Shown here one piece after another: positions 8,142 through 20,300 of a DNA stretch of 25,303 nt (positions within the stretch are counted from its first letter, which is position 1; every line of letters starts with the position of its first letter). This stretch comes from a virus. Both the position numbers and the translations under genes were made by a program. The stretch is from IMG/VR virus record IMGVR_UViG_3300037807_000553, positions 1 through 25,303 of that record; one strand, 5' to 3'. The notes under the pieces were generated by a model that saw nothing but the letters and a program-made list of their open reading frames with translations, made no database searches and was not told the DNA's origin.

Positions 8142-8228
8142 TTATAGTAACCATATCAACCCACAAGCGCACGCTGTAATCAGTAGCCCGATGCAGATGC
8201 CCTTTGCGGGGTTGCCGAGAATGTTCAT
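8142..8228 (-). CDS. 28-residue single-span membrane microprotein
   Basis: The ATG at 8228 overlaps the stop of the pentapeptide gene (ATGA), and the stop abuts the AAGGAG of the next gene. KGICIGLLITACACGLIWLL is one hydrophobic helix rich in Cys and Gly. No ribosome site is obvious, so it would depend on coupling. Function unknown. Confidence 0.5.
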   Translation of the reverse strand: MNILGNPAKGICIGLLITACACGLIWLL

Positions 8229-8965
8229 GCCGCTAGATTTTCTGAAACTGTTTTAATCCATGCGCCGTACATTGTTAGCTCGCTCTTGCTATAACCATAT
8301 TTTAGCCCGATTTCTTTGTAGTTCTTAAGCCAGTATTTAACAGTGTGGCGTTCACAGCCTATTGATATATGGGTGGCGGTTGCAATGCAGTGATGATGCC
8401 CGAAATATGCGATATAAAACACTTTGCCTTGCGCGTTATTCAGTTCCGCATAATTCAGTTGCGCGTTATTCAGTTTCGCGTTATTCAGTTCCGCATAATT
8501 CAGTTGCGCGTTATTCAGTTTCGCGTTATTCAGTTGCGCGTCATTCAGTTTCGCGTTATTCAGTTGCGCGTCATTCAGTTTCGCGTTATTCAGTTGCGCG
8601 TTATTCAGTTCCGCATAATTCAGTTCCGCGTTATTCAGTTTCGCGTCATTCAGTTGCGCGTCATTCAGTTTCGCGTTATTCAGTTCCGCGGCATTCAGTT
8701 GCGCGTTATTCAGTTGCGCGTCATTCAGTTGCGCGTCATTCAGTTTCGCGTTATTCAGTTCCGCGGCATTCAGTTGCGCGTAATTCAGTTTCACGTTATT
8801 CAGTTGCGCGTTATTCAGTTCCGCGTTATTCAGTTGCGCGTCATTCAGTTTCGCGTAATTAAAAGAAATACCATTCTTTACCCCATCTTCCAGTAATTCT
8901 TTTATTGTTTCAAAGTCGCCTTTGTGCAATACGCTACCGTCAATCCAGCTATATATTTTTATCAT
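8225..8965 (-). CDS. Pentapeptide-repeat protein with C-terminal domain
   Basis: 246 residues. After a short N-terminal domain (MIKIYSWIDGSVLHKGDF, 1-37) come 28 uninterrupted pentapeptides of the A(K/Q/E)LN(N/D/Y/A) type (38-177). They should build a right-handed four-sided beta-helix about seven coils long. The C-terminal 69 residues (GKVFYIAYFGHHHCIA, IGCERHTVKYWLKNY) form a separate domain often found after such repeats. Some pentapeptide proteins mimic DNA and bind gyrase, but this acts here only as a possibility. AAGGAG precedes the start, and it is the first leftward gene after the divergent control region, so it is transcribed early. Confidence 0.85.
   Translation of the reverse strand: MIKIYSWIDGSVLHKGDFETIKELLEDGVKNGISFNYAKLNDAQLNNAELNNAQLNNVKLNYAQLNAAELNNAKLNDAQLNDAQLNNAQLNAAELNNAKLNDAQLNDAKLNNAELNYAELNNAQLNNAKLNDAQLNNAKLNDAQLNNAKLNNAQLNYAELNNAKLNNAQLNYAELNNAQGKVFYIAYFGHHHCIATATHISIGCERHTVKYWLKNYKEIGLKYGYSKSELTMYGAWIKTVSENLAA
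8435..8854. repeat. Tandem 15-bp DNA repeat encoding the pentapeptides
   Basis: About 28 near-identical 15-bp units (core ATTCAGTT(G/T/C)CGCG on the rightward strand) run head to tail, with a 30-bp higher-order pattern in places. Codon choice is nearly fixed, so the array looks recently expanded or homogenised and should be prone to copy-number change. Confidence 0.9.
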
Positions 8966-12844: not shown

Positions 12845-14002
12845 ATGGCAAAACTATCAGATTTCAAACCACAAGAGAAAAATGCAAATAAACACAACGA
12901 ATACGGCTTAACGCTATTAGAGCGTAGCATTCAGGAAAACGGCTGGATGGGCGCAATCACAACCGCCGCCGATGGTGAGACGTTCGCAGGGAGCGCAAGG
13001 CTTGAAAAGCTGGCTGAGTTGATGCCAGACAAAGAGCCTATTGTGATTGAGACAGACGGGGCGACGCCTGTTATCATCAAGCGAACTGACATCCCGAACG
13101 CAAAAGACAAAAGAGCGGTACGGGCTGGCATAGCTGATAACAGAGTGCAGGAAGTCGATCTTGAATGGGACACCGATATTATGGGGGATATGATAGCGGA
13201 AGATGAAACGATATTTGACGGATTATTTAACGAAGATGAGCTTATAGATTTTGGCGTGATGGATGAGCCAGAGAGCCAAGACGCGGAGCCGCAAGTGGAC
13301 CGCGCCGCTGAGTTGCTTGAAAAGTGGCAGGTGAAAACGGGCGACTTGTGGCAGATTGGCGACCACCGAATCATTTGCGGAGATTGCACAGACGCGGCGG
13401 TCGTGGAGCGGGTTATGGGGGGGGAGAAGGCGGACTTGTGCCTGACTGACCCGCCGTACGCAACTGGCGGAAAATCTAAAGATTATGATATTAGCGAAGA
13501 AGAGTTAATTGTTCTTATTGGGAAATTCTTGCCACTTGCATTATCTGTTAGCAAAAGAATTTTATTAACCCCTGGAAACAAATATCAATTTTTATACCCA
13601 AAGCCGGAGTGGGTTTTAGCTTGGTTTGTTCAAGCAGGCGTAGGAGCTAATCCTTGGGGCTTTACATTTTGGAACGCTATATTCGCCTATGGAAAAGACC
13701 CATATTTAGAAAGTGGGATTGGGAGTAGACCAGACGCTTTTGTGAAAACAGAAGCATCCGAAAAAATAGGACACTCAACTTCAAAGCCACTTGGCGTGTG
13801 GTCGTGGATATTAGAGCGAGGTAGTATAAATAAAGGTGACATTATTCTTGACCCATTCGCCGGAAGCGGGACAAGTTTAGTCGCCGCCGAAAACCTATCC
13901 CGCCAATGCCGAGCGGTAGAAATCAGCCCCGCCTATGTCGCTGTAACGCTTCAGCGGATGGCGGACGCGTTTGAAGGCATAGAGATAAAGCGGATTGAAT
14001 AA
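12845..14002 (+). CDS. ParB-domain DNA methyltransferase
   Basis: 385 residues with two parts. Residues 1-150 form a ParB/sulfiredoxin-like domain (QENGWMGAITTAADGETFAG and NAKDKRAVRAGIADNR). Residues 165-380 form an N4/N6 DNA methyltransferase: HRIICGDC, catalytic TDPPY (201-205), STSKP (311-315) and the cofactor motif DPFAGSGTS (336-344). Fusions of this kind are frequent in phages beside the terminase and may mark DNA for packaging or evade restriction. From about 13470 the DNA turns clearly AT-rich until 13850, covering the target-recognition part. The ribosome site is weak (GGTG). It overlaps the small terminase by one base (TAATG). Confidence 0.9.
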   Translation: MAKLSDFKPQEKNANKHNEYGLTLLERSIQENGWMGAITTAADGETFAGSARLEKLAELMPDKEPIVIETDGATPVIIKRTDIPNAKDKRAVRAGIADNRVQEVDLEWDTDIMGDMIAEDETIFDGLFNEDELIDFGVMDEPESQDAEPQVDRAAELLEKWQVKTGDLWQIGDHRIICGDCTDAAVVERVMGGEKADLCLTDPPYATGGKSKDYDISEEELIVLIGKFLPLALSVSKRILLTPGNKYQFLYPKPEWVLAWFVQAGVGANPWGFTFWNAIFAYGKDPYLESGIGSRPDAFVKTEASEKIGHSTSKPLGVWSWILERGSINKGDIILDPFAGSGTSLVAAENLSRQCRAVEISPAYVAVTLQRMADAFEGIEIKRIE

Positions 14003-14409
14003 TGTCAAAGCCAACTAAAGCCGAACTAACGCAACGCGTAGCCCGAATTTCGGAGCTGCTTTTGCGCGGCGCGTCCCGTGCTGTTATCTGTCAATATGTG
14101 TCAGAAAAGACAGATTGGGGAGTGACGGATCGAACTGTAGACCGCTATATTGAAAGTGCTACCGTTACGATAAAAGCGGGTGCTGAGACAGATTTAGAAT
14201 ACGAGACAGGCAAGGCAAAAGAGCGGTACGAGTTTCTATGGAATAAAGCACTGTCTACGCATGATTACAGGGAAGCGCGCGGCGTGCAGAAAGACCGCTC
14301 CGCGTTGCTAGGTCTCGAAGCCCCGAAGCGTACCGACATCACCAGCGCGGGGAAAGAGTTAAAAGGTTACGCAGTGGTAAACCCTGATGATTGGGACGAT
14401 GGCGATTAA
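14002..14409 (+). CDS. terS: Terminase small subunit
   Basis: 135 residues. The N-terminal part carries a helix-turn-helix (VARISELLLRGASRAVICQYVSEKT, 13-37, then WGVTDRTVDRYI). A central helical segment (about 60-110) probably forms the oligomer ring, and the acidic C-terminus (NPDDWDDGD) may contact the large subunit. It recognises the packaging site on phage DNA. The next gene is the large terminase, whose start overlaps its end. The assignment rests mainly on position, size and the domain order. Confidence 0.8.
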   Translation: MSKPTKAELTQRVARISELLLRGASRAVICQYVSEKTDWGVTDRTVDRYIESATVTIKAGAETDLEYETGKAKERYEFLWNKALSTHDYREARGVQKDRSALLGLEAPKRTDITSAGKELKGYAVVNPDDWDDGD

Positions 14410-15634
14410 ATCAATCTATGCGCCGCTTGATTGGCAGATTGCGCCCTTTCGTGATAAGTCGCCTGTCTTGCTACTCACAGGCTCGGCTGGTGGTGGTAAG
14501 TCAAAGATAGCGGCAGAGAAGGTGCACGCCTATTTATTGAAATATGCAGGTGCAACGGGTATCATCGGGCGCAAAGATAAAACAGCGGCGGGTAAGTCCG
14601 TTGTGCCTTTTTTGAATAGCAACGTGCAGGGGGATAGTAATTGGGGAAGGCTTGTCAAGAGTACAGGACTTTTCAAATATAATAACGGCTCTGAATTGTG
14701 GGTTGTCGGTATGCAAGGCAAAGACCAGCAAGAAGCTCTTAAGTCTATTGGTAAAGATGGGCGCGTGGATATTGCTTGGTTTGAGGAGGCTAACGCGCTA
14801 ACAGAAGATGATCATAATCTTATTCTAACTCGTATGCGTGGCACGGCGGCTGATTGGACGCAGATTATATATACAACCAACCCAGACCGCCCGAATCACT
14901 GGATAAACCAAAGGCTAATACTAGGCGGTGAAGCATCCGTATATTACAGCAAGGCAACGGATAACCCGCACAACCCGAAAGCATACATCGAAACGCTGAA
15001 TAAGCTAACGGGCGTTATGCGTTTGCGCTTGCGTGATGGGCTTTGGGTTATGGCAGAGGGCGCAATATATGAGATGTTCGACCCGTCTATCCATGTGAAG
15101 CGGCGCAATAGTGCTGAGATGAAACGATGGATGCTTGCGCAGGATGAAGGCTATACCAATCCCGCTACTATAATTTTAGTAGGCGAGGACGGTGACGGGC
15201 GTTGGCATATTTTCAGAGAGTGGTATGAGCGCGGCAAACTTCAAAGCGAAGTTGTGAAGCGTGCGGTTTATTATATGGAACTTGTACGCAGATACGGTGC
15301 TGAAATCTCAATTGACGCGGTAGACGCGGCGGCGGCTGGGCTGATTGCAGAGTTGAGAAATAACAACGTACCAGCGGTATCTGCAAAGGGTCGCGTACTG
15401 GATGGAATACAAAACGTGCAAGACAAATTAGCGGTACAACGTGACGGATTACCTCGATTGACAGTAGATCCTAGATGTAAAAATGCTATTATGGAATTTG
15501 AGAGCTATACTTGGAAGAAAACGAACACAGGCACAAAAGACGAGCCGAATAAAGAAAATGACCATATCTTAGACCCTATAAGATATTTAGATGATACGGC
15601 AACAAATAGCGCGGTTATCGCGTGGGAATGGTAA
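14399..15634 (+). CDS. terL: Terminase large subunit
   Basis: From ATG 14399 the product is 411 residues; ATG 14387 is also in frame, and neither has a good ribosome site, so coupling to the small subunit is likely. ATPase motifs: Walker A GSAGGGKS (28-35) and Walker B VDIAWFEEAN (123-132), then a TTNP coupling motif (159-162). The RNase H-like nuclease shows Asp249 (AQDEG), Asp306 (SIDAVD) and NDHILD (387-392). It cuts and pumps phage DNA into the prohead. Length and motif order are normal, so it is intact. Confidence 0.95.
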   Translation: MAIKSIYAPLDWQIAPFRDKSPVLLLTGSAGGGKSKIAAEKVHAYLLKYAGATGIIGRKDKTAAGKSVVPFLNSNVQGDSNWGRLVKSTGLFKYNNGSELWVVGMQGKDQQEALKSIGKDGRVDIAWFEEANALTEDDHNLILTRMRGTAADWTQIIYTTNPDRPNHWINQRLILGGEASVYYSKATDNPHNPKAYIETLNKLTGVMRLRLRDGLWVMAEGAIYEMFDPSIHVKRRNSAEMKRWMLAQDEGYTNPATIILVGEDGDGRWHIFREWYERGKLQSEVVKRAVYYMELVRRYGAEISIDAVDAAAAGLIAELRNNNVPAVSAKGRVLDGIQNVQDKLAVQRDGLPRLTVDPRCKNAIMEFESYTWKKTNTGTKDEPNKENDHILDPIRYLDDTATNSAVIAWEW

Positions 15635-15636
15635 CA

Positions 15637-17241
15637 ATGGAAAATCTAAAGGCTGGTATATACATTCAGAACGGTGACGGCAAAGTGGACGCTCTAAAGA
15701 ATTTCGGCGTTCTTGAGAGCATACTTGGGGAGACTGAAACAAGCGCGGCTTCGATGGCTTCATTAGTGCCTTACGTTTTCGCTGCAATGGATAGACGCGG
15801 GGCGCGAATTAGCGAGATAGAGCACGAATGGCGGCGCGGTGACGAGGTGACGAAGGACGCGCCATTTCCCGTTCAACTAAGGCAATTGCTTCGCCGCACG
15901 GATGAAGCAATGCAACTGATAGGAACAGCCTATTGGTATAAACTACGCAACGGCTCGGGCAAATTGGTCGGCGTGCGTTGGCTTGACCCGTCCAGCATGA
16001 CCCCCGACCCTAACAGCATAGAAAACCCAATAGGTTATACCAATTATAAGCGAAGCACGGAAGGCGGCGAGATTGACGTTCTCGCTGATGACCTTTTTGT
16101 TTTTCGTAAGCTAGGCTTGAGAGAGTACCAAGCGGGCGGCATAGCAGGAACAGCAACGAGGCTAGCAACTGAAATATTATATAATCTTAGCCAAGCTGAA
16201 AACACGCTATACAAAAACCCGCTCCCCGTGTCTCTGATAGTAGTACCGCAGGGGACGGCGCAATCCGAGCGGGACAGGGTAAAAAATTTCTTCTGGCGCG
16301 TGTTCAATCCGTCTAGTAAATCAAGCCCTGAAAATAGGGTAATGCCAGTATTTGAAGGAACGGAAGTTAAGCGGATTAGCATGACCGCTGAAGAACTGGA
16401 TTTCGAGGGCGGTAGGCAGCCAAACGCCGTAGCGGTAATCGCCGCTCATGGTGTACCTGTTTCTGAAATCTTTGACGATGCCGCGAATATGGCGACCGCT
16501 TCGGAGTACGGGCGGTCATTCACCACGCGGCTTGGTACGCGGCTCTTTGATATTGCGGACGTTATCAACTTAGATTTTGACATGGTGAAAATTGGGTATA
16601 CTTTGGACTTCTTCCCAGAGCGGCACGCCACCATGCAGAAAGACGATTTAGATGTTAGTAACGCTTTTGTAAATTACGGCGTTGGCGGCTTGACCCCAAA
16701 AGCGGCGGCTTATTTAGTGGGCATCACGGACGATGATTTCCCGCAGGACTTCGGGGAAGTCTTTGCAACAGAAACAGAGCCAATCGAAGAAACAGAAGCA
16801 GAGCCAGACGAGCCGATAGAAACGAAGGCGCGGGGCGACTTGCTAAAATGGCGGCGTAAGGCTTTGCGCGTTGGCGGGTGGTGTGAGTTTGAGAGTGACA
16901 ACATCCCGCAGAGTTTAGCGAAAGAAATCAGCGGCGCATTGAAGGCGCAGAAAACTGAGAGCGGTATAAAGTCGCTGTTTAGTGATTATTTAGAAGATGA
17001 GATCCCAGACGAAAAAGAAGAGTTAAACGGGCTAATGGATAACATCATCAAAGCGTTGCAAGATGATACGCCGCCCCCCCAACCAGTGACACAGGTTTTC
17101 AATATGACGGTAAAGGGCAAGGAAGGCGCAACACCCGAAGAAATCGCCGCAGAATTTGCGAAGGCGGTCAGCGAGATGCAACCCGCGCAAATTGTAGTCA
17201 ATAACGAAGTGCCAACGCCGAACGTAACCGTAAGGAAATAA
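15637..17241 (+). CDS. Portal protein
   Basis: 534 residues from ATG 15637, which follows the terminase stop by 2 nt with GGGA upstream. The core (about 40-375) has the HK97-type portal pattern: YVFAAMDRRGARISEIEHEWRR, GTAYWYKLRNGSGK, LDPSSMTPDPN, and AANMATASEYGRSF. The C-terminus is a Glu/Pro-rich linker followed by charged helices and a Pro-rich tail (TPPPQPVTQVFNM). Twelve copies form the DNA entry ring at one capsid vertex. It follows terminase in the standard head order. Confidence 0.9.
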   Translation: MENLKAGIYIQNGDGKVDALKNFGVLESILGETETSAASMASLVPYVFAAMDRRGARISEIEHEWRRGDEVTKDAPFPVQLRQLLRRTDEAMQLIGTAYWYKLRNGSGKLVGVRWLDPSSMTPDPNSIENPIGYTNYKRSTEGGEIDVLADDLFVFRKLGLREYQAGGIAGTATRLATEILYNLSQAENTLYKNPLPVSLIVVPQGTAQSERDRVKNFFWRVFNPSSKSSPENRVMPVFEGTEVKRISMTAEELDFEGGRQPNAVAVIAAHGVPVSEIFDDAANMATASEYGRSFTTRLGTRLFDIADVINLDFDMVKIGYTLDFFPERHATMQKDDLDVSNAFVNYGVGGLTPKAAAYLVGITDDDFPQDFGEVFATETEPIEETEAEPDEPIETKARGDLLKWRRKALRVGGWCEFESDNIPQSLAKEISGALKAQKTESGIKSLFSDYLEDEIPDEKEELNGLMDNIIKALQDDTPPPQPVTQVFNMTVKGKEGATPEEIAAEFAKAVSEMQPAQIVVNNEVPTPNVTVRK

Positions 17242-17940: not shown

Positions 17941-18161
17941 CAGATAATAACGAAGCATGGCATAAATATAAATTCGGCTATTCAAAAAAGTTTAGCGATA
18001 ACTGGTCAAGGATATTCGGCAATGATAAGCACAAAGATAGTGACACGAGGCTTGGCGAAAAGAAACAACATGACGCGGCTAAAGCGTGGAATGAGTCCAG
18101 TGGCAACGAGAGCGGCGGCGAAGTACCTAGTCGGCAACAAAAGGCGCGGGCTAAAGCATGA
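17937..18161 (+). CDS. Small hydrophilic protein overlapping the next gene
   Basis: 74 residues, coupled by ATGA to the Mu F-like gene. It is polar and basic (HKYKFGYSKKFSDNWSRIFGNDKHKD) with a disordered C-terminus (NESSGNESGGEVPSRQQKARAKA). The last 140 nt are also read in another frame by the gene at 18022. The coupling supports translation, but the long overlap leaves doubt. No function recognised. Confidence 0.5.
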   Translation: MTDNNEAWHKYKFGYSKKFSDNWSRIFGNDKHKDSDTRLGEKKQHDAAKAWNESSGNESGGEVPSRQQKARAKA

Positions 18162-18516
18162 GCCGAGATACAAAACGATAAAGCGCAAACGCGCCTATGG
18201 AAAAACCTTTTTTACTGACAAGCAGAGAAAGTGGTTTTTTTGGGCTTTGCGAACTGGCAAGATAAAGCCAGGACGAAACAACAGAACACATGAAATGAGC
18301 AACGGTTGGGAAGTTGTGAAAACTAAAAGCGGCGCAAACATAGTAAACCGCGTCAAACATGCCATATGGAGTTATGATAACAAAAGGCAAGCGCGGCTTA
18401 ATAAATTAGTCGGCTGGCGTAAAATCAAAGACATAGAAAATCCTAGCAACAAAAAAGGGATGCTGAGAGCAGCAGATCAAGCAGTTCAAAGATTTATAAA
18501 CGATTTGCAAAAATAG
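18022..18516 (+). CDS. HK97 gp10-like neck/minor tail protein
   Basis: 164 residues, with AAGGA 9 nt before the ATG. The composition is very basic. The pattern GKTFFTDKQRKWFFWALRTGKI (60-81), then NNRTHEMSNGWEVVKTKSG and IVNRVKHAIWSYDNKRQARLNKLVGW, matches phage proteins of the gp10/neck type that join head and tail. The N-terminal 47 codons overlap the previous gene. Its end contains the -35 box of the capsid promoter. The family call is from pattern and position. Confidence 0.65.
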   Translation: MISTKIVTRGLAKRNNMTRLKRGMSPVATRAAAKYLVGNKRRGLKHEPRYKTIKRKRAYGKTFFTDKQRKWFFWALRTGKIKPGRNNRTHEMSNGWEVVKTKSGANIVNRVKHAIWSYDNKRQARLNKLVGWRKIKDIENPSNKKGMLRAADQAVQRFINDLQK

Positions 18517-18533
18517 AACGAAGGTGCTATAAT
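18505..18533 (+). promoter_or_regulatory. Capsid promoter
   Basis: TTGCAA (18505-18510) and a perfect TATAAT (18528-18533) are exactly 17 nt apart. The -35 overlaps the end of the gp10-like gene. Transcription from about 18540 gives a 120-nt leader before the capsid start, so the most abundant structural protein can be made separately from the upstream head genes. Confidence 0.65.
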
Positions 18534-18560
18534 GCCCTTAGTAAGAACAATTAAATAAAT

Positions 18561-18641
18561 TGCACTAGAGGCAAATAACGATTTTGCGGTGCATGTAACA
18601 AAGCCTGAAAAGGTGATTTTGTTGCATGTGCCGCTTTTGTG
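18561..18641 (+). ncRNA. Attenuator-like structured leader before the capsid gene
   Basis: Bases 18586-18602 pair with 18618-18634 over 17 bp, with three G-U pairs. Inside, GCCT/AGGT closes a GAAA tetraloop (18603-18614). TTTTGTG follows at 18635, so this is terminator-like. An alternative fold uses TGCAC (18561-18565) with GTGCA (18589-18593) plus GCAAA/TTTGC (18571-18587), and takes part of the same left arm. The two folds exclude each other, as in attenuators. A separate stable small RNA is the alternative reading. Confidence 0.6.
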
Positions 18642-18659
18642 TTATAGGAGAGACTTATT

Positions 18660-20300
18660 ATGGAAAATATCTTTTTTGGTGATACCGTCAAGGCTTTGGG
18701 TGATGGCAAGGTCGTCGGGTATCTCGTCCGCTTTAGTAACCAAGAAATGCCAGACTTAGAAGACGACTTCTTTACTGCTAAAACTGAATTCGGAACGAAT
18801 ACAACCCCGCCAGTGGTTTATCATCACGGCATGGATAGCACGCTAAAGGCTAAGATCATCGGTACAAGCGAATTGAAGTTCGATGAGTTGGGCGTGTGGA
18901 TTGAAGCGCAATTAAATATGCGTGATGAATACGAGCGTGCGGTCTATGGCATGGTTGAAGCTGGCAAAGTTGGCTGGTCATCGGGCGCAATCTCTCACCT
19001 ATATGAGAGCGAAGAAACCGAAAAAGCACGTTGGATTAAGACGTGGGTTATCGGGGAAGCAAGCATCACCCCCACCCCAGCAGAGCCGCTAAATAATGTA
19101 CTAACGCTGAAATCTTTCTTAGAGAGCGGTGCTACCGCTGAGAGTGACGAAGGCGAAAACGAAAATAAAACTATTGAAGAGGTCAAAATGAAACCCGAAG
19201 AAAAAGAATTGGATTTAGGCTATGATGAAACCGCCGAAACCGTAGATGTCACCGAATTGGTACAAGATGCGGTCGCAGAACAAATGAAAGCTTGGGAAGA
19301 AAAACAGGTCATTGATAAAGCTGGCGTTGCCGCCAAGCGCGTTAATGTCAACAGCAAAACCAAGCGCGGCGATAGCGAGACGAAAGCCTTTGCATATTTC
19401 GCCCGAACAGGTGACGAAGGCGCAATCAAAGCAAGCAATGATACTGATATGAATATCGGTACCGATGCAGACGGCGGTTATACCGTTCCCACTGGTCACT
19501 ATAACGGCATCATCGCAAAACGTGATGAAAGTATGCTCTCTGCTAAATTGGGCGTACGGATGATTCCCGGGACAGGCACAACCGTAAATGTCCCGCTCGA
19601 CAACGAAGCTGATGGCGAATTTGTCGTAACTGGCGAGGCAAGCGGTTTCGACCGTGACGCCCCTGCGCTCTCCACCGTAGCAATGACGCTACTCAAGTAC
19701 ACCAAGAAAATTGAACTCTCTTATGAGTTGCTCCAAGATGAAGATAGTCGATTGATGGCTTTCCTTGCTGATTTCGTTGGGCGCGGCATGGCTAAAACGC
19801 ACAACGATTTACTCTTGACCGAAGTTGCCGCCAATGGTACGCAATTCAAAGAGTTTGCAAGTGCAACCGTCATTGCAGTAAACGAACTGGAAACCATCCC
19901 GTTCAATAGTGCGCTTGGTAACTATTTAGATGAAGCTGGCTCGGTTGGCTGGGTTATGCAACGCCCCGTACATGGTGAAATCGTGTTACTGGATGACGCG
20001 AATACCCGCCGCTATGCTTCTAATACCATGCCCGATAGCACAGGCGTGTTTGCCCCGTCCTTGCTCGGTTACCCCGTGCATTACAGCGCAAAAGCTGGCT
20101 TGACCGCCGCAAATGCTAAAAGCGTATTCTTTGGTAACTGGAACTTTGTGGGTAAGCGTGAAGCCCCTGGCTTTACCGTTCTGCGTGACCCATACTCCAA
20201 AGCCGAAAATGGTCAGGTAGTGCTTCATTACTACTTTAGAACTGTTTATGACGTTCTGCAAGCTGAAGCAATTGGCTATGGCGATCACCCAACAGCATAA
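18660..20300 (+). CDS. Fused prohead protease and HK97-fold major capsid protein
   Basis: 546 residues; AGGAG lies upstream of the ATG. Residues 1-150 are a prohead protease: YHHG (54-57) and GWSSGA (105-110) supply the catalytic His and Ser, with EASITPTPAEP beyond. A Glu/Lys-rich linker (about 155-235) is scaffold-like. From about 240 the HK97 capsid domain follows (GTDADGGYTVPT, RMIPGTGTTVNVPL, SRLMAFLADFVGRGMA, GNWNFVGKREAPGF). One chain therefore carries protease, scaffold and coat, probably processed at assembly. Codons 184-193 lie in the 28-bp repeat shared with the tail-tube gene. The stop overlaps the next ATG. Confidence 0.9.
   Translation: MENIFFGDTVKALGDGKVVGYLVRFSNQEMPDLEDDFFTAKTEFGTNTTPPVVYHHGMDSTLKAKIIGTSELKFDELGVWIEAQLNMRDEYERAVYGMVEAGKVGWSSGAISHLYESEETEKARWIKTWVIGEASITPTPAEPLNNVLTLKSFLESGATAESDEGENENKTIEEVKMKPEEKELDLGYDETAETVDVTELVQDAVAEQMKAWEEKQVIDKAGVAAKRVNVNSKTKRGDSETKAFAYFARTGDEGAIKASNDTDMNIGTDADGGYTVPTGHYNGIIAKRDESMLSAKLGVRMIPGTGTTVNVPLDNEADGEFVVTGEASGFDRDAPALSTVAMTLLKYTKKIELSYELLQDEDSRLMAFLADFVGRGMAKTHNDLLLTEVAANGTQFKEFASATVIAVNELETIPFNSALGNYLDEAGSVGWVMQRPVHGEIVLLDDANTRRYASNTMPDSTGVFAPSLLGYPVHYSAKAGLTAANAKSVFFGNWNFVGKREAPGFTVLRDPYSKAENGQVVLHYYFRTVYDVLQAEAIGYGDHPTA
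19209..19236 (+). repeat. 28-bp exact repeat (copy 1, capsid linker)
   Basis: The 28 bases beginning TTGGATTTAGG and ending AACCGCCG are identical to 23203-23230, 4 kb away. Both copies are read in the same frame as LDLGYDETA, here in the linker between protease and capsid. Confidence 0.9.

Follow-up and report, generated by a model that had tools for sequence, protein, structure and literature searches.

The window, that is the whole stretch of DNA analysed, was the 25.3-kb IMG/VR virus record IMGVR_UViG_3300037807_000553 (positions 1–25,303) from an uncultivated phage. Its plus strand carried a late gene cluster comprising terminase (14387–15634), portal (15622–17241), unknown ORFs, a gene for a prohead protease (S78)–major capsid fusion (18660–20300) and head-tail genes. 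Outside this cluster, a minus-strand pentapeptide-repeat gene (8225–8965) was built of near-identical 15-bp tandem units, with which the near-identical contig L080 aligned at several offsets, suggesting a change in copy number. A ParB-like/DNA methyltransferase gene (12845–14002) was absent from contigs L079 and L080, both near-identical to the window, and ~0.2 kb stood there in place of the window's ~1.1 kb.

Promoter, hairpin and competing fold before the capsid gene

The capsid ATG was preceded, in this order, by an extended -10 promoter, a leader, a hairpin, the sequence TTTTGTG and a Shine-Dalgarno site, all on the plus strand. The -35 hexamer TTGCAA (18505–18510; TTTGCA one base upstream fits too) lay inside the 3′ end of an upstream ORF (18022–18516) and was separated by a 17-nt spacer from the -10 hexamer TATAAT (18528–18533). 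With TG at 18525–18526 the latter formed an extended -10 element (TGcTATAAT, 18525–18533) of sigma70 type. The TTGCAA-17-TATAAT promoter claimed in a preliminary description of this DNA was borne out, since it scored 10/12, the top of nine matches in 3.5 kb, and none of 100 shuffles reached this score. A transcript start was predicted at ~18540, placed 7 nt past the -10 hexamer. A short frame (MPLVRTIK*, 18532–18559) with a GAAGG site overlapped the -10 hexamer and stopped just 5′ of the antiterminator strand described below; it could be read only on transcripts coming from upstream. Attenuation by a leader peptide was considered for the promoter at 18505 and rejected, because the transcript from 18540 had no usable start codon before the antiterminator.

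The terminator-like hairpin (18586–18634) had 17 contiguous pairs, including three G-U pairs, followed by a 4-bp apical helix with a GAAA cap. As had been claimed from its G-U pairs, it belonged to the rightward RNA, at -29.2 kcal/mol compared with -14.6 kcal/mol on the opposite strand. No hairpin with T4 behind it was more stable on either strand of the whole window, and the folding of the leader (18540–18660) gave z = -4.9, with none of 200 shuffles as stable. The hairpin was followed by a U-tract (TTTTGTGTT, 18635–18643) and the Shine-Dalgarno site AGGAG (18646–18650). A G+C-containing hairpin and then a U-tract is the form of an intrinsic terminator, and the terminator score d was 26.7 in the window and 25–52 in relatives. 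The U-tract of the window was weaker than most of those in relatives (tail score 4.7 versus 4.65–5.8), so termination in the window may be poor.

When growing transcripts from 18540 were folded step by step, the leader adopted an alternative fold at -10.6 kcal/mol before the 3′ arm of the terminator was made. This predicted antiterminator hairpin (18561–18593) paired 18561–18566 with 18588–18593 and 18571–18575 with 18583–18587; it contained the TGCAC/GTGCA pairing noted earlier, as part of a larger structure, and ruled out the eight lowest pairs of the terminator, those adjoining the U-tract. A lone 5-bp match of the TGCAC/GTGCA type is expected by chance in ~23% of shuffles, and the total stability of the truncated leader was marginal, being reached by 6% of shuffles. 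The probability of upstream pairing of the terminator base was 0.97 in the window and 0.45 in shuffles, and none of 300 shuffles reached 0.97, indicating an alternative pairing, beyond chance, that excludes the terminator base. In the comparison of the two energies that the preliminary description had called for, the terminator was favoured by ~10 kcal/mol once its 3′ arm was made. A switch between the predicted folds is plausible as geometry.

Recurrence of the layout at head genes of related phages

Near-identical contigs carried the leader with 0–2 differences, one of these in the loop. In L079 the identity with the window broke in the upstream gene, which had diverged there, and resumed at 18502, three bases before the -35 hexamer, indicating that promoter, leader and capsid gene stayed together while the upstream gene diverged. 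Relatives with ~45–54% capsid identity, among them L009, L014, L015, L016, L114, L121 and L124, had different sequences in a similar layout, consisting of a hairpin, a T-run and the start codon; most also had a promoter upstream. More distant relatives with the layout included L181, L188–L197, L201, L207, L219, L222, L250 and others. Searches of isolated phage records gave no DNA match to the leader, and protein matches there were distant or absent.

In a control set of 110 non-redundant loci, a hairpin with TTTT at the gene start was found at 24 of 72 protease/capsid genes and at 21 of 765 other genes (Fisher p = 5e-16). Eight of the 21 other genes were portal genes (L077, L118, L139, L148, L184, L186, L202 and L251); the protease genes of these eight contigs were absent from the 24, indicating that the element precedes portal or protease/capsid but not both. 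The distance from hairpin to start codon was 6–31 nt in all but L228, a weak match among the 24 (61 nt) that was excluded from later steps, and this spacing leaves no room for another promoter between hairpin and start codon. Of the 23 leaders, about 15 had a promoter upstream of the hairpin that scored better than shuffles at p ≤ 0.05.

The hairpin was lacking at 48 of the 72 related protease/capsid genes, some of them at 52–56% identity. The preliminary description had named capsid relatives without conserved pairing as evidence against its proposal of an attenuator-like layout before the capsid gene, and in part such relatives were found: L007, L010 and L089, with ~52–56% identical capsids, had no such leader. 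Its proposal stood as regards promoter, leader, terminator, the competing fold at the terminator base and recurrence in diverged phages.

Covariation was analysed in a set of 20 distinct portal leaders, whose proteins were ~60–90% identical. In the terminator stem, 9 of 16 pairs were changed on both sides (37 cells, 92.6% paired), and none of 500 shuffles did as well. The alternative hairpin at the terminator base was short in this set (GGCG/CGCC or GCG/CGC), and two of its pairs were changed on both sides, in one lineage only (L382/L383). Among all leaders, upstream pairing of the 8 nt proximal to the terminator base was 0.53, compared with 0.44 in shuffles (p = 0.02 in the capsid group and 1e-4 in the related portal group), a modest group effect, and that of the next 8 nt of the terminator was not above shuffles.

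Several minor features were seen in these contigs. In L015, L016, L121, L114 and L124 the capsid start lay 6–11 nt past the terminator with no Shine-Dalgarno site between, and several other genes on the same contigs do have such a site. A scan of the collection with the hairpin TTAGGCATNGCCTGAC, common to L016 and L121, gave mostly chance matches. On L009 (1631–3277, minus strand), three consecutive ORFs each had a GAGCCCC..GGGGCTC hairpin and a T-run near the start. A host among the Anaerolineae/Chloroflexota was considered but gained no support, as prophages there with a related capsid or portal were without the cassette of promoter, AAYYRAATA motif (described below), terminator and head gene. 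The contig of a metagenome-assembled genome (JAIXKI010000007.1; L147, 4590–4800), binned as Chitinophagales, had TTGACA-17-TATATA, AACTGAATA, a hairpin and a likely TTG start. The usual promoters of Chitinophagales differ from the sigma70 type, and the sigma70-like promoter of this cassette makes the binning doubtful.

A motif at the predicted transcript start

The sequence AAYYRAATA occurred in 26 of 57 non-redundant leaders, whereas 200 shuffles gave 0.43 such leaders on average and never more than 3. Because some of these leaders had served to derive the pattern, the enrichment counts are partly post hoc and the exact odds optimistic. The -10 matrix score upstream of the motif peaked sharply at a gap of 6 nt, which places the motif at the predicted +1. 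For an earlier, narrower form of the motif there were nine occurrences in the leaders (3.4 kb in all), compared with seven in 1.72 Mb of other DNA once the tandem-repeat gene of the window was set aside; three of the seven again lay in cassettes.

All fetched DNA was then scanned for the motif with a -10 hexamer at 5–8 nt, a hairpin and an ORF. This yielded 19 full cassettes, a few of them close relatives of one another, and all 19 stood before a protease/capsid or portal gene. Large contigs totalling ~0.66 Mb contained four sites that combined the motif with a -10 hexamer, namely two known cassettes, one site without a hairpin and one with a hairpin on L432 (14676–14760), which is not at that contig's capsid gene. 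Gibbs sampling of all leaders was marginal at width 10 (217 versus a shuffled maximum of 214) and clearer at width 12 (230 versus 215); the case for this candidate signal is carried by the enrichment counts rather than by the sampling. The internal stop codons of the motif had been considered as gene ends, an explanation that was dropped, as most of the sites lie in non-coding DNA behind a promoter. In L219 (upstream of 3430) the motif followed an apparent tRNA gene, judged by eye, and not a promoter.

The leader of the window contained a full match to the motif (AATTAAATA, 18549–18557), but 15 nt past the -10 hexamer, at about +10 and not +1; the shuffle probability of the motif in this leader was 0.015. 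The motif of the window was thus out of register with the 6–7 nt past the -10 hexamer that is typical of the cassette, and by this position and its weak U-tract the window is an atypical member.

Proposed conditional termination and other readings of the cassette

The reading that we favour, with somewhat better than even confidence, is a promoter-proximal conditional terminator through which head-gene expression would be gated by attenuation or antitermination. Computation provided the promoter, the terminator, the alternative fold, the recurrence of the layout in relatives, the start-site motif carried by many of them and the stem covariation of the portal set; termination, its relief, its timing and the relieving factor are steps that we infer. 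Host RNA polymerase would start near 18540 and make a leader of ~95–100 nt, and polymerase may also come in from upstream genes. It would then reach the intrinsic terminator, whose end lies 25 nt from the capsid start codon, and in the default state most transcripts would go no further. Read-through, and with it capsid synthesis, would occur if the leader took the alternative fold or if the polymerase were modified to a terminator-resistant form, most likely by a phage or host factor late in infection.

The same promoter and terminator, with no ORF in between, could instead belong to a phage small RNA gene. A stable, trans-acting RNA of ~100 nt would be its product, the location at head genes would be secondary and the capsid gene would be expressed through partial read-through. 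Conservation of the 5′-end motif in many relatives would fit such a gene, as would the sequence that groups of leaders have in common: L330, L332, L335 and L349 have longer leaders that share GCTTGATGGAGTTCGTTGGTCAAGG, or a close form of it, between start motif and terminator, a region that is possibly a structured RNA of its own. The reading nevertheless appears rather unlikely, because the length and body of the leaders differ widely among groups and the terminator lies nearly always 6–31 nt from a head gene, a proximity that a trans-acting RNA would not need; in addition, Rfam leaders and riboswitches gave no match at gathering score in the window and 18 relatives.

A plain insulating terminator, limiting leaky capsid or portal expression from upstream or host transcription, would call for no trans factor and no switch, just a fixed partial read-through. 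It would account for terminator shape and U-tract being the most constant parts of the cassette. We hold it to be unlikely, given that the promoter often stands before the terminator and not after it, that the predicted start carries a conserved motif and that the base of the terminator shows a preference for pairing with the leader.

The T-run kept directly behind the stem in nearly all relatives, and the short, terminator-like stems of many of them, speak against a third reading, in which the structure is a 5′ hairpin of the capsid mRNA for processing (e.g. by RNase III) or stability and no terminator. The hairpin search itself required a T-run, so that its presence is partly due to selection; the enrichment at head genes is not. 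The long, near-perfect double strand of the stem, the weak U-tract of the window and the several relatives without a Shine-Dalgarno site between hairpin and start would agree with this reading, which we regard as very unlikely. A chance hairpin beside a promoter is highly improbable: hairpins are frequent in intergenic gaps and the element is patchy among capsid relatives, but the enrichment, the motif association and the portal-set covariation already disfavour it.

For the conditional terminator, recurrence of the layout at the first head genes of many distant relatives, in many cases together with a common start motif, points to an on/off control of late genes that has not been described before. 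A more specific form of late-gene antitermination or attenuation can be put forward only tentatively, as it may well prove wrong: the first transcribed AAYYRAAUA would flag either the polymerase or the emerging transcript to a phage factor, and the terminator abutting the capsid or portal start would be read through only late. If true, one compact cassette would gate capsid and portal synthesis in a group of uncultivated tailed phages, and the start-site motif, of which no description was found in the open-access literature, would mark this cassette in many of them. Motif, spacing, terminator and start codon would then provide a sequence handle on late-gene switches in metagenomic phages, and the cassette would be a test case of how polymerase becomes terminator-resistant from the first transcribed bases.

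Among known systems, classical leader attenuators such as trp have mutually exclusive antiterminator and terminator folds. Such folds were also predicted in the leader of the window; unlike those attenuators, the transcript from 18540 was without a credible leader peptide.

In phage lambda, late transcription from pR′ ends at tR′ as long as Q has not loaded; the loading site is embedded in the promoter and comes with a -10-like pause element in the initially transcribed region (PMC6606751). The cassette resembled pR′-tR′/Q in its sigma70-type promoter and short terminated leader ahead of late genes, whose read-through would turn structural genes on. In relatives it also has a conserved element where the lambda pause element lies, at +1 to +9, though by inspection AAYYRAATA mostly lacks the T at the sixth -10 position. 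It differed in the competing leader fold predicted and in the place of its terminator, which directly adjoins the start codon of capsid or portal within the structural cluster. The scan of window ORFs revealed no antiterminator, Q-like or otherwise, and neither a Q-type protein nor a small antiterminator gene common to the cassette contigs was found on these partial contigs. As the motif is not clearly -10-like and no Q was seen, the cassette was not assigned to the lambda type.

A cis-acting leader RNA able to alter polymerase without a phage protein, like the put RNA of HK022, is likewise conceivable here; put acts on early genes (PMC9378689), whereas the conserved part of the cassette is a short 5′-end motif and a terminator, and no put-like structure was noticed in it. 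The late genes of Xp10 carry intrinsic terminators that are overridden by the phage factor p7, which abolished termination at unrelated terminators in vitro (PMC4513864). The cassette is alike in placing intrinsic terminators at late phage genes, but those of Xp10 are spread along a long operon and no motif of the AAYYRAATA kind is described for them (PMC4513864). In searches of the open-access literature, no terminator was found that adjoins the start codon of a capsid or portal gene and is accompanied by a motif of this type.

Inverted repeats just 5′ of phage gene starts are also a feature of the mycobacteriophage SAS/ESAS elements, in which a fixed 13-bp sequence (GGGATAGGAGCCC) precedes genes of many types and is discussed in connection with translation (PMC3203893). 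Unlike these, the cassette had a hairpin followed by a T-run and was concentrated at head genes; the window shared only ATAGGAG with GGGATAGGAGCCC, around its Shine-Dalgarno site (by inspection).
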